Below, one piece after another: positions 3,018 through 16,437 of a stretch of 21,666 nucleotides of DNA; the stretch's first letter is position 1; each line of letters opens with the position of its first letter. This DNA comes from a virus. The position numbers were made by a program, and so were the translations under genes. The notes under the pieces are model-generated. The model was not told the origin of the DNA. It was given only the letters and a program-made list of their open reading frames with translations, and made no database searches. The stretch spans positions 1 through 21,666 of IMG/VR virus record IMGVR_UViG_3300038701_002780. One strand, given 5' to 3'.

Positions 3018-3349
3018 GACGCACGCACACCCTCGCCACTTTGGGCGTAACAGAGTCGGCTTGGCGCTCAGTAGCTACTGCGCTTAAAGAGGCTGGTGCG
3101 CACAACCGACTCGAACCCGGAGAACTCGACTTGAACGGCGTTATGCTCGTCATCGATGATCCCGCGATGTGTTTAGCTAGAGTGCGCGAACGCCTAGTGA
3201 ATGCTAAGGAAAATGGCTACGAAGATCATCTTACGCAAACCCCTTTAGAGTTAGCCGTCGATCTTCGGGACCGTTGTGATGATCTTGAAAACTACTCTCT
3301 TGAGTCTATTGTTTCCGCTGTAGAAAGGGCGCTCGGTAATGTCACGTAG
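3014..3349 (+). CDS. Small unknown protein, mostly helical
   Basis: The product has 111 residues and begins MRRTHTLATLGVTESAW. The middle has 'LDLNGVMLVIDD', resembling a short beta hairpin, and the C-terminal half is helical and acidic ('LAVDLRDRCDDLENYSLES'). No family is recognised. Start and stop overlap both neighbours (four bases upstream, 11 bases downstream), marking it as part of a coupled run 2760-3773. Confidence 0.72.
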   Translation: MRRTHTLATLGVTESAWRSVATALKEAGAHNRLEPGELDLNGVMLVIDDPAMCLARVRERLVNAKENGYEDHLTQTPLELAVDLRDRCDDLENYSLESIVSAVERALGNVT

Positions 3350-5541: not shown

Positions 5542-6342
5542 ATGAAACCTCTAATTGGTGCAAAACAGCTACAGAAATTCCTACAAATTCGCGGCTTTTA
5601 TAAAGGGCGTATTGACGGCATATTTGGGCGCAAGTCTCAGCACGCAACAAAGCTTGCTGTTACGGATTACATCGAAACCAACAGAATGACGTTACGTACT
5701 GACGGCTGGAAAGCTGCACGCTGGCAAAACGCAGCGGTACAAATTCTGTTCAAAGACCTTGGGCTTTACAGCGGCAACGTCGATGGGCTAGACGGACCTA
5801 ATACGCAATACGCTTTGGAGCAGTACCAAAACTTGATGCGTGACACTGACGACGATGACGATGGCGGCACCGTCCCTACACGCTGGCCTCTTTATTCTCA
5901 GATGGAGCAATTCTACGGACCCGTCGGTACGTCTCAGAAACGCTTCGACCTCCCCTACCCGATGGTGCTTGCGTGGGATACCGACACGGAAGTTAGCCGT
6001 ATCACCATGCACGAGAAATGCGGACCATCCGCTATCGGTGTGCTAGAGGAAGTGCGCGACCATTACGGCCTGCCAGCTATCAAGGAACTATATCTTGATA
6101 TGTTCGGCGGCTCACTCAATGTTCGCAAGATGCGCGGAGGTAATCGCTACTCTACTCACTCGTGGGGCTGTTCCATTGACTTCGATCCAGAGCGCAACCA
6201 ATTCCGCTGGACAGACAGCCGCGCAAGTCTTGCTGCCAGAGAGTACGAATTCTTTTGGAAGGCTTGGGAACGTCAGGGGTGGGTATCCCTTGGCCGTGAA
6301 CGTAATTTCGACTGGATGCACGTACAGGCCGTACGTCTTTAG
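5542..6342 (+). CDS. Endolysin: two peptidoglycan-binding repeats plus M15 peptidase
   Basis: The product has 266 residues. Two PG_binding_1-like repeats (about 5-42 and 61-98) share the pattern L-x-L-G-x-Y-x-G-x-x-D-G ('RGFYKGRIDGIFG', 'LGLYSGNVDGLDG'). An Asp-rich linker (101-107) leads to a peptidase M15/VanY-like domain. Its zinc motif is visible as 'STHSWGCSIDFD' with His206 and Asp213 (SxHxxGxAxD), and the third ligand as His260 in 'DWMHVQ'. The family cleaves peptide stems of peptidoglycan, fitting host lysis. There is no signal peptide, so release would need a holin, which I do not see next to it. TAG at 6340-6342 is followed directly by a TTGACA promoter element. Confidence 0.9.
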   Translation: MKPLIGAKQLQKFLQIRGFYKGRIDGIFGRKSQHATKLAVTDYIETNRMTLRTDGWKAARWQNAAVQILFKDLGLYSGNVDGLDGPNTQYALEQYQNLMRDTDDDDDGGTVPTRWPLYSQMEQFYGPVGTSQKRFDLPYPMVLAWDTDTEVSRITMHEKCGPSAIGVLEEVRDHYGLPAIKELYLDMFGGSLNVRKMRGGNRYSTHSWGCSIDFDPERNQFRWTDSRASLAAREYEFFWKAWERQGWVSLGRERNFDWMHVQAVRL

Positions 6343-6371
6343 TTGACACACCTCGCACGGGCGAGTAACCT
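6343..6371 (+). promoter_or_regulatory. sigma70-type promoter TTGACA-N17-TAACCT
   Basis: A perfect -35 TTGACA (6343-6348) starts directly after the endolysin stop. TAACCT (6366-6371) follows 17 bases later and is a weaker -10. The predicted RNA start is near 6378, exactly at the foot of the first hairpin of the small RNA candidate. Confidence 0.6.
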
Positions 6372-6377
6372 GCAATA

Positions 6378-6436
6378 GGTATCCTCCCAGATACTTGCGT
6401 CGAAAGCGAGGCAGTGTGAAAGCTGTCTCGCTTTTT
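6378..6436 (+). ncRNA. Candidate phage small RNA with CU-rich loop and its own terminator
   Basis: Between a TTGACA promoter and an intrinsic terminator lies a predicted RNA of about 59 nt. Its 5' end forms a hairpin with GGTATC (6378-6383) and GATACT (6390-6395) around the loop CTCCCA. A single-stranded linker follows, then the terminator stem. A C/U-rich loop containing CUCC can pair with Shine-Dalgarno sequences; Alphaproteobacteria have known small RNAs with CCUCC-type loops. The region is otherwise gene-free. It could alternatively be a leader or attenuator for the gene at 6456, or only the endolysin's terminator. Confidence 0.5.
6405..6436 (+). terminator. Strong intrinsic (rho-independent) terminator
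   Basis: AGCGAGGCAG (6405-6414) and CTGTCTCGCT (6423-6432) form a 10-bp stem with a single G-U wobble and an 8-nt loop, followed by a T run (6432-6436). It would end transcripts coming from the endolysin and from the promoter at 6343. It is the clearest terminator in the window. Confidence 0.85.
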
Positions 6437-6455
6437 CCATTTCAGAGGATTATAC

Positions 6456-6866
6456 ATGTCCATAAAAAAACGCACCCTGCCCAAAAAACCAAAGCGCAAA
6501 AAACGGGTACTTAGCCCCCACCAGAAACGATGCAAACGTCTTTACAATCGATTGCAAGAGGACGATAGCAACGACGGCGTACGTTACGTACTGAACCAAC
6601 TAACGCCTTTCGAAATGAACACACACCTAGCCTTGCAGTACCTTATAACGCGGGCCGACACGACGGTTAGCACTTTACAGGTAAACGGACCTTACGGCAA
6701 AGGTGCTACCTTTCGCGTACATATGGCCTACACAGACAGGACAAAGAAACCTCACTTGGGTTATCTATATCCTCAAAAGGCAGTCGTAAAAACCTCGCCC
6801 ATATTGCTAATATCGGTTATGCTCAGCTATATCGAACTAAGCAAAAACGTAGGACGTTTTATATGA
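6456..6866 (+). CDS. MSIKKR-tagged basic protein, unknown
   Basis: The product has 136 residues, starting with a tag variant (MSIKKR) followed by more basic residues ('TLPKKPKRKKRVLSPHQKR'), so residues 1-32 are nearly all polar and basic. The remainder appears mixed alpha/beta ('FEMNTHLALQYLITRADTT', 'GATFRVHMAYTDRTKKPHLG'). No family is recognised. Its Shine-Dalgarno (AGAGGA) lies just after the terminator at 6405-6436, so its expression depends on read-through or on a start I cannot see. It overlaps the next gene by ATGA. The palindrome at 6543 codes 'YNRLQ'. Confidence 0.8.
   Translation: MSIKKRTLPKKPKRKKRVLSPHQKRCKRLYNRLQEDDSNDGVRYVLNQLTPFEMNTHLALQYLITRADTTVSTLQVNGPYGKGATFRVHMAYTDRTKKPHLGYLYPQKAVVKTSPILLISVMLSYIELSKNVGRFI
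6543..6556 (+). repeat. Palindromic element, copy 4 (in gene, frame N-R-L)
   Basis: TACAATCGATTGCA, an exact match to the consensus, read as Tyr-Asn-Arg-Leu-Gln about 30 codons into the gene at 6456. Confidence 0.8.
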
Positions 6867-8441: not shown

Positions 8442-8447
8442 CTGATC

Positions 8448-8496
8448 GTTGATATATTGCAAAAAGTTGATATATTCGCCTATGAACACTCCATAG
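8448..8496 (+). promoter_or_regulatory. Promoter with direct and inverted repeats upstream of the SLOG gene
   Basis: TTGATA (8449-8454) and TATATT (8471-8476) are 16 bases apart and make a plausible sigma70 promoter. Each sits within a copy of the direct repeat GTTGATATATT (8448-8458, 8466-8476), offset by 18 bp. Downstream, CTATG (8480-8484) and CATAG (8492-8496) form an inverted repeat over the likely RNA start. This looks like a regulated promoter for the operon starting at 8510. An alternative pair, TTGCAA-N18-TATGAA (8457-8486), is also possible. Confidence 0.55.
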
Positions 8497-8509
8497 TTAG
8501 CGGGCGAAC

Positions 8510-15023: not shown

Positions 15024-15041
15024 CTGTTCTGTATACTTAGC

Positions 15042-15070
15042 TTGCATGCATTAAGAATTCGTTATATGCT
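15042..15070 (+). promoter_or_regulatory. Promoter-like pair TTGCAT-N17-TATGCT
   Basis: TTGCAT (15042-15047) and TATGCT (15065-15070) are 17 bases apart in the 74-bp gap between TerL and the gene at 15098. The pair matches those at 2690 and 4078. It would start the transcript for the run of small genes and probably the portal region. No terminator is visible after TerL, so read-through from the upstream operon is also expected. Confidence 0.6.
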
Positions 15071-15097
15071 AAAAGCTAACTAACTCGGAGCATACCC

Positions 15098-16082: not shown

Positions 16083-16437
16083 GCGAATTGATACCTTAGA
16101 GGAAACCTTAGCATGGCAGGGGGCTAACCCTAAATCCTTACCTATCGCTGAGTTGCGCGCGCATATACGAGCCGCCCACGGCGAAGACGGGCAAATTGCC
16201 GCAGCACGCTCTAGGATAAAAAACAGGGCAACAGGTATCCGCGCTTTTTGCGTTACTTGTATGGGTGGCGACGTGCCGGGGGTTCGTCAATGTCCTTCAA
16301 TCACTTGCCCCCTGCATCCTTTTCGCATGGGAAAAGACCCGTTACGTGGGTACGCCATACCCAAAATGGAAATGCCCGAACTTGAAATCGAAGACGATGA
16401 CGTGGGCGAGTACGAGGATACCGACGATGCCGATTAA
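15913..16437 (+). CDS. Cys4 zinc-binding phage protein with coiled coil and acidic tail
   Basis: The product has 174 residues. A charged coiled coil ('EEASYVRAKLERELDNL', 'RLTKRIDTLEETLAWQG', about 23-70) leads to 'NRATGIRAFCVTCMGG' and 'CPSITCPLHPFRMGKDP' with Cys113, Cys116, Cys127 and Cys132. This C-x2-C...C-x4-CPLxPFR pattern is a common phage zinc-binding family of unknown function, possibly nucleic-acid binding. The tail is acidic ('EIEDDDVGEYEDTDDAD'). It is followed by a paralogue of the Cys4 module at 16427 and overlaps it by 11 bases. Confidence 0.82.
   Translation: MTEDVEHRRHHSTDPEYYEGKLSEEASYVRAKLERELDNLYSRQRESRGVDRLRLTKRIDTLEETLAWQGANPKSLPIAELRAHIRAAHGEDGQIAAARSRIKNRATGIRAFCVTCMGGDVPGVRQCPSITCPLHPFRMGKDPLRGYAIPKMEMPELEIEDDDVGEYEDTDDAD

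Follow-up and report, generated by a model that had tools for sequence, protein, structure and literature searches.

A candidate attenuated leader RNA with a C/U-rich patch between the lysin gene and the virion operon in relatives of Rhodobacter phage RcDurkin

INTRODUCTION

The late genes of lambdoid phages are preceded by the promoter pR′, a short leader and the terminator tR′ (PMC4604602). In Stx phages the pR′-tR′ transcript, a by-product of antitermination, gives rise to the stable 74-nt small RNA StxS, which silences translation at a ribosome-binding site (PMC7873438; PMC12197685). Another phage RNA, the c4 antisense RNA of P1 and P7, has loops that are thought to block a ribosome-binding site (PMC12197685). 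On the bacterial side, the alphaproteobacterial alpha-r14/cuckoo RNAs carry the anti-Shine-Dalgarno motif CCUCCUCCC, and the stems of small RNAs with such loops are divergent (PMC10746234; PMC3927594). RNAs with anti-Shine-Dalgarno loops are well known from alphaproteobacterial chromosomes; StxS, the known case of a terminated late leader acting as a regulatory RNA, comes from coliphages. Here we describe a phage locus with likenesses to both.

RESULTS

The phage and its gene order

The window, i.e. the whole stretch of DNA analysed, corresponds to one complete IMG/VR record (21,666 bases), and its + strand carries all recognisable genes. The terminase is ~70% identical to those of the RcF phages RcDurkin, RcTiptonus, RcKickapoo and RcMenchie (Rhodobacter capsulatus; 94 kb) and 48% identical to that of Agrobacterium phage JP1. 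Portal and glycosyltransferase similarities agree with the terminase on the relatives of the phage. On these similarities, an alphaproteobacterial host is likely.

In RcDurkin the genes follow the order HU, small gene, lysin A, the gap studied here, two hypotheticals, HTH protein, DprA-like protein, glycosyltransferase, ParB-like protein, terminase, portal and capsid. The window has the same order plus an extra epimerase-like gene, and the genes 3′ of the gap (HTH, glycosyltransferase, ParB, terminase, portal, capsid) all lie on one strand. Upstream of the gap is the endolysin gene (5542..6342, + strand; Pfam PG_binding_1 and Peptidase_M15_4), which encodes a peptidoglycan-binding domain and an M15 peptidase, and whose RcDurkin homologue is annotated as lysin A L-Ala-D-Glu peptidase. 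The first gene past the gap (6456..6866, + strand) encodes 136 amino acids of no known Pfam family and heads the gene run toward terminase and portal; its Shine-Dalgarno sequence, AGAGGA, is at 6444..6449 (+). Homologues of this gene were found in L003, L004, L007, L010 (RcDurkin), L022, L024 and L114, and a weak one in L021.

Three features of these genomes lie outside the gap. The terminase large-subunit genes at L010 11620-14760 and L118 7987-11031 are ~1 kb longer than that of the window, and the RcDurkin terminase match splits in two pieces, which suggests an insertion such as an intein. Many unrelated window proteins share a basic N-terminal tag, M(P/S/T/G)IK(K/R)R, found at the ORF starts 2060, 4136, 4372, 6456, 7824, ~15444, 16427, 17495 and ~20630; similar tags occur in L022 (MPIKKRS, MPIKQRP), L028 (MPIRKRL) and L027 (MSIRKRA). 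Finally, a palindrome, TTGCAATCGATTGCA with the 10-bp core CAATCGATTG, recurs through the window and the genomes of relatives, mostly within genes. Its positions in the window are 1108, 2659, 3806, 4565, 6543, 8186, 9352, 10347, 12181, 12997, 15598, 17756, 18626, 19774 and 21623. Exact cores number nine in the window (0.02 expected) and 40 in RcDurkin (0.06 expected). With at most one mismatch RcDurkin (L010, L189 and L190) has 57 sites, which are spaced more evenly than random sites (coefficient of variation 0.53 versus 0.97; 0/2000). The palindrome also occurs in L003, L004, L007 and L022, and is absent from L021, L024, the searched stretch of JP1 (L011) and the other distant relatives searched; the RcF phage paper does not contain the string 'palindrom' in its text. 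A phage DNA-binding protein such as the ParB-like one might use the palindrome as a site throughout the genome.

Elements of the unit

Direct reading of the letters confirmed the elements listed by a first-pass annotation of this DNA: a −35 hexamer, a 17-nt spacer, a −10 hexamer, a hairpin, a linker and a terminator. The putative sigma70-type promoter (6343..6371, + strand) consists of TTGACA (6343-6348), which begins on the base right after the lysin stop codon, and TAACCT (6366-6371), which matches the −10 consensus at just three of six positions. A generic promoter scanner did not report it; in our scoring it was unusual within the window (P = 0.013), and similar promoters were found in the seven relatives. 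Transcription is expected to start near 6378 and to yield an RNA of ~59 nt.

The first hairpin (6377..6396, + strand) has the arms AGGUAUC and GAUACUU around the loop CUCCCA and a minimum free energy of −5.5 kcal/mol. The loop is as annotated before; the stem, previously given six pairs, has seven, one of them G-U. A five-base linker (6397-6401, + strand) leads to the predicted intrinsic terminator (6402..6436, + strand), a 14-pair stem (6402-6415/6422-6435) with the loop GUGAAA and a T-run at 6432-6436, a few bases 5′ of the Shine-Dalgarno sequence of the next gene. The whole predicted RNA folds far better than its shuffles (z = −4.9; 0/200 as good). This excess is due to the terminator and not to the first hairpin, which alone folds no better than chance (z = −1.15; 23/200 shuffles fold equally well). 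The locus had also been called the only well-defined gene-free spot of its region, which is too strong, as there are gaps of 68-110 nt at 1067-1166, 2650-2759, 8442-8509 and 15024-15097; a terminator comparable to that at 6402..6436 is absent from these four.

Two further motifs were seen in the unit. An inverted repeat, CTCGC-ACGG-GCGAG (6352-6365), lies within the 17-bp promoter spacer and could be an operator; 35/200 shuffles of the stretch fold as well. TATCCT (6380-6385) is a possible −10-like pause element, which by eye is not conserved.

Homologous gaps keep the layout and not the letters

Relatives were found with alignments of the lysin, glycosyltransferase, terminase and ParB as queries; single-protein queries (p3, lysin) against viral contigs gave no matches, and the glycosyltransferase family found no relative in bacterial genomes. 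Most of the 80 lysin matches from the alignment search were other phages, and none of the 20 inspected downstream had an evident counterpart of the unit. The gap between the lysin and the next gene was located in eight lineages: the window, L003, L004, the RcDurkin group (RcDurkin, RcTiptonus, RcKickapoo and RcMenchie counted as one), L007, L022, L024/L025 and L021. In L022 and L007 other presumed lysis enzymes are upstream of the gap, and in L021 the family link of the next gene is weak. L114 has the next gene without a corresponding gap, and L028 has the lysin without one.

In all eight lineages a promoter is followed by the short RNA, a GC-rich hairpin and the next gene, in this order. The gaps themselves do not align (37% mean column identity), so that the likeness across lineages is one of layout and not of letters. 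As the stems do not align, covariation gives them no support, and a conserved first stem is lacking in the eight lineages. Since the relatives keep the layout, these comparisons make it probable that the promoter-to-terminator unit is genuine, as a leader or a small regulatory RNA.

Promoters were scored as TTGACA-16/18-TATAAT-like pairs in the range from 40 nt before the lysin stop to the terminator; an extended TGn −10 earned a bonus, and a 17-bp spacer a small one. The mean score over the eight lineages was 9.06, compared with 6.03 in dinucleotide shuffles (0/300 as good). In the relatives the first base of the −35 lies between positions −26 and +9 relative to the lysin stop, and the spacer is 17 bp in 8/8 lineages, a length that earned the small bonus. 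The weakest case was L024, with a promoter no better than chance (P = 0.39). TGCTA, the extended −10, is the commonest shared 5-mer before the terminator (5/8 lineages), the other top 5-mer being CCTCC.

A GC-rich hairpin is present in 8/8 lineages. In L004, L007 and RcDurkin (L010) it is followed by a weak U-run or none, so that termination in these three may be uncertain, inefficient or factor-dependent. From the end of the hairpin to the next start codon there are 9-20 nt in every lineage (19 nt in the window). A second promoter does not fit into this distance; unless there is a promoter inside the next gene, the virion operon should be transcribed through the terminator. The unit would then be the leader of the next operon as well, because the terminator adjoins the next gene in all eight lineages, and this makes the 'free-standing' status given to the RNA by the first-pass annotation doubtful.

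A second promoter-terminator-gene layout was seen elsewhere in RcDurkin (L010 3124-3215): TTGCGT-17-TAATAT, a hairpin at 3175-3197 with TTTCCTTT, and a gene at 3215.

A C/U-rich patch is enriched in the gaps

In the window the putative anti-Shine-Dalgarno patch CCUCCC (6383..6388, + strand) lies mostly in the loop of the first hairpin, with unpaired probabilities of 1.0 for CUCC and 0.8 for CCUCC. CCTCC, the motif stated beforehand in the first-pass annotation, occurs between the lysin stop and the terminator in 4/8 lineages (window, L004, RcDurkin, L022), where dinucleotide shuffles give an expectation of 0.75 (p = 0.0016, a value that rests on few lineages, n = 8; p = 0.016 for the whole gap). 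As the window was chosen for having the motif, the independent count is 3/7. The reverse complement GGAGG was found in 0/8. Folding predicts the motif to be unpaired (probability 0.8-1.0) in three of these, the window, L004 and RcDurkin, as is the patch of RcKickapoo; in L022 the motif is roughly half paired. L007 has CUCC and L021 has CCCCUC in a hairpin loop, L024 has CCUC only, and L003 is without a CUCC/CCUC patch. Within the RcDurkin group, the gaps of RcKickapoo and RcMenchie carry CCTCCTCCC, which includes an exact CCUCCUCCC; this occurs once, in the unpaired 5′ tail, and in these two phages only.

Matches to a blind descriptor (hairpin with CCTCC/CTCCC in the loop, followed by a terminator) were rare: 2.6 Mb of loci, redundant in part, contained 19 distinct elements, of which two, in the window and L004, fall in homologous gaps. 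The earlier proposal that the C/U-rich loop could target Shine-Dalgarno sequences is strengthened by the enrichment of the unpaired patch at this site and by the exact CCUCCUCCC in two Rhodobacter phages. Conservation of the terminator stem alone, which the first-pass annotation had set against its own reading, was not what the relatives showed: the promoter position is conserved too and the C/U-rich patch is enriched.

Against the ribosome-binding sites of its own phage the window RNA showed a weak preference over background, which 16/200 shuffled RNAs equalled. The best pair consisted of 9 bp between GGUAUCCUC and GAGGAUACC at the ribosome-binding site of the gene at 16427, and could be due to chance given the number of comparisons. 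GGUAUCCUC (6378-6386) is perfectly complementary to GAGGATACC (16412-16420) in the ribosome-binding region of that gene.

Searches with Rfam at the gathering threshold gave no match in the window or the seven related loci, and a permissive search (E < 5) gave chance-level antisense matches only. One of these, to the serC leader in antisense (20 bits, threshold 35), was rejected as a chance effect of the hairpin.

DISCUSSION

Proposed function and alternatives

The reading that we favour, tentatively and at a little less than an even chance, is that 6343-6436 is an attenuated leader of the virion operon, whose terminated by-product is a small RNA able to block ribosome-binding sites. RNA polymerase would start near 6378, make ~59 nt and mostly halt at the terminator (6402-6436). 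The virion operon would be expressed on read-through, either from the promoter at 6343 or from upstream. The terminated RNA would expose CCUCCC, which could pair with Shine-Dalgarno sequences, and the by-product could act in trans by blocking ribosome-binding sites, as StxS does. Conservation of promoter position, order and terminator-to-gene spacing, together with enrichment of the patch, supports the layout part of this proposal; what we infer is a stable RNA that is actually made and released, regulated read-through, and binding of the patch to mRNAs in trans. We favour an attenuated leader with an anti-Shine-Dalgarno seed because the StxS precedent unites the leader and the small-RNA readings.

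A bolder version, which we regard as doubtful, is that the leader RNAs of this family of alphaproteobacterial phages imitate the cuckoo/AbcR small RNAs of their hosts. At the time when late expression is being set, they would alter translation of the host or of early phage genes, with the stems free to evolve and selection acting on the exposed CCUCC alone. If these proposals are true, phages have independently made a translation regulator out of an otherwise 'wasted' attenuated late transcript and, in the bolder version, imitate a host RNA class. The unit is directly testable, since RcDurkin, RcTiptonus, RcKickapoo and RcMenchie are cultured phages and their host Rhodobacter capsulatus is a laboratory organism.

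The strongest alternative, although we consider it rather unlikely, is a leader or attenuator of the lambda pR′-6S-tR′ type and nothing more: late genes would be controlled through antitermination or a leaky terminator, with an inert short RNA as by-product, and CCUCC would be incidental or would serve RNA polymerase or an antiterminator. In its favour, 8/8 lineages conserve the order and the spacing and leave no room for a second promoter, neither the first stem nor the patch is strictly conserved, and lambdoid late promoters share exactly this plan (PMC4604602; PMC7873438). Against it stand the enrichment of CCTCC and its exposure in most lineages that have it, and no Q-like antiterminator was identified.

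We see a small chance that the unit encodes a dedicated free-standing anti-Shine-Dalgarno RNA, as the first-pass annotation proposed, which would regulate mRNAs of host or phage in trans in the manner of cuckoo, alpha-r14 and AbcR and have no leader role. That annotation also suggested that the RNA could dampen translation around lysis; the genes that follow the unit are for virion and packaging proteins. The compact arrangement of promoter, hairpin and (in the window) strong terminator, the exact CCUCCUCCC of the two Rhodobacter phages and the rarity of the blind-descriptor elements would suit such an RNA, but a terminator that always adjoins the next gene makes the unit inseparable from expression of the operon, the first stem is not conserved, and there is no Rfam match.

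Ordinary punctuation, i.e. a terminator of the lysin operon plus a promoter of the next operon with nothing regulatory, has a slim chance of being correct. Terminators and promoters are common between operons, and in other intergenic parts of RcDurkin CCTCC is found sparsely, at what looks like chance level. The usual order of such elements, however, is terminator and then promoter, as at several other RcDurkin gaps, whereas in each lineage here the promoter comes first and its own transcripts run into the terminator.

A translational switch in cis, in which the patch would pair with the Shine-Dalgarno sequence of the next gene across the terminator hairpin in the read-through mRNA and shut translation, is very improbable: ensemble folds do pair the two in RcDurkin (probability 0.74) and L022 (0.90), but the window, L007 and L021 show almost no such pairing, and when leaders and Shine-Dalgarno sequences were swapped between lineages own pairs showed no preference (0.26 versus 0.34 for swapped pairs; permutation p = 0.78), for which we rejected it as a general rule.

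Comparison with known systems

The layout of promoter, short leader and intrinsic terminator directly before late genes is that of lambda pR′-tR′, with a weak U-run in three lineages. The lambda 6S RNA is ~194 nt long, compared with ~59 nt here, and the likeness is one of layout; the lambda leader also works with a Q-type antiterminator and a −10-like pause element. StxS is closer in that a promoter and a terminator at the head of a late operon enclose a short RNA (50-100 nt range), and the by-product is proposed to block a ribosome-binding site. The present unit differs in its host class and in its place, following the lysin and preceding packaging and virion genes; sequence similarity to StxS was neither looked for nor is claimed. 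StxS also features Q-type antitermination and Hfq binding, whereas the unit described here is known from sequence alone.

With the cuckoo/CcsR/alpha-r14 RNAs (NfeR1, SmelA075) and with AbcR (alpha-r15) the unit may share an unpaired C/U-rich anti-Shine-Dalgarno motif and stems that diverge freely: the stems of the eight lineages cannot be aligned, while CCTCC is found in half of them, CUCC/CCUC is unpaired in more, and the motif is absent from L003 and partial in L024. In the cuckoo/CcsR/alpha-r14 RNAs CCUCCUCCC is repeated in the loops of two to four hairpins; in the window a single hairpin of the unit has CUCCCA. The window motif is CCUCCC in place of CCUCCUCCC, the motif is in the 5′ tail or linker in some phages, and the unit is a phage-borne leader. 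A DUF1127 gene, a feature of the CIN1 locus, was not found adjoining the unit, which is flanked by the lysin and the protein without a Pfam match (part of the window genes were scanned). We do not class the unit as a cuckoo/alpha-r14 RNA: its motif is single, and shorter in the window, it gave no match in Rfam, and a DUF1127 neighbour was not found.

Like c4, the RNA proposed here is a phage RNA that would block ribosome-binding sites with a loop; the target of c4 is specific, the ant mRNA, whereas the RNA here has a putative anti-Shine-Dalgarno patch. In its working, the unit would resemble both an anti-Shine-Dalgarno small RNA and a lambdoid late leader.
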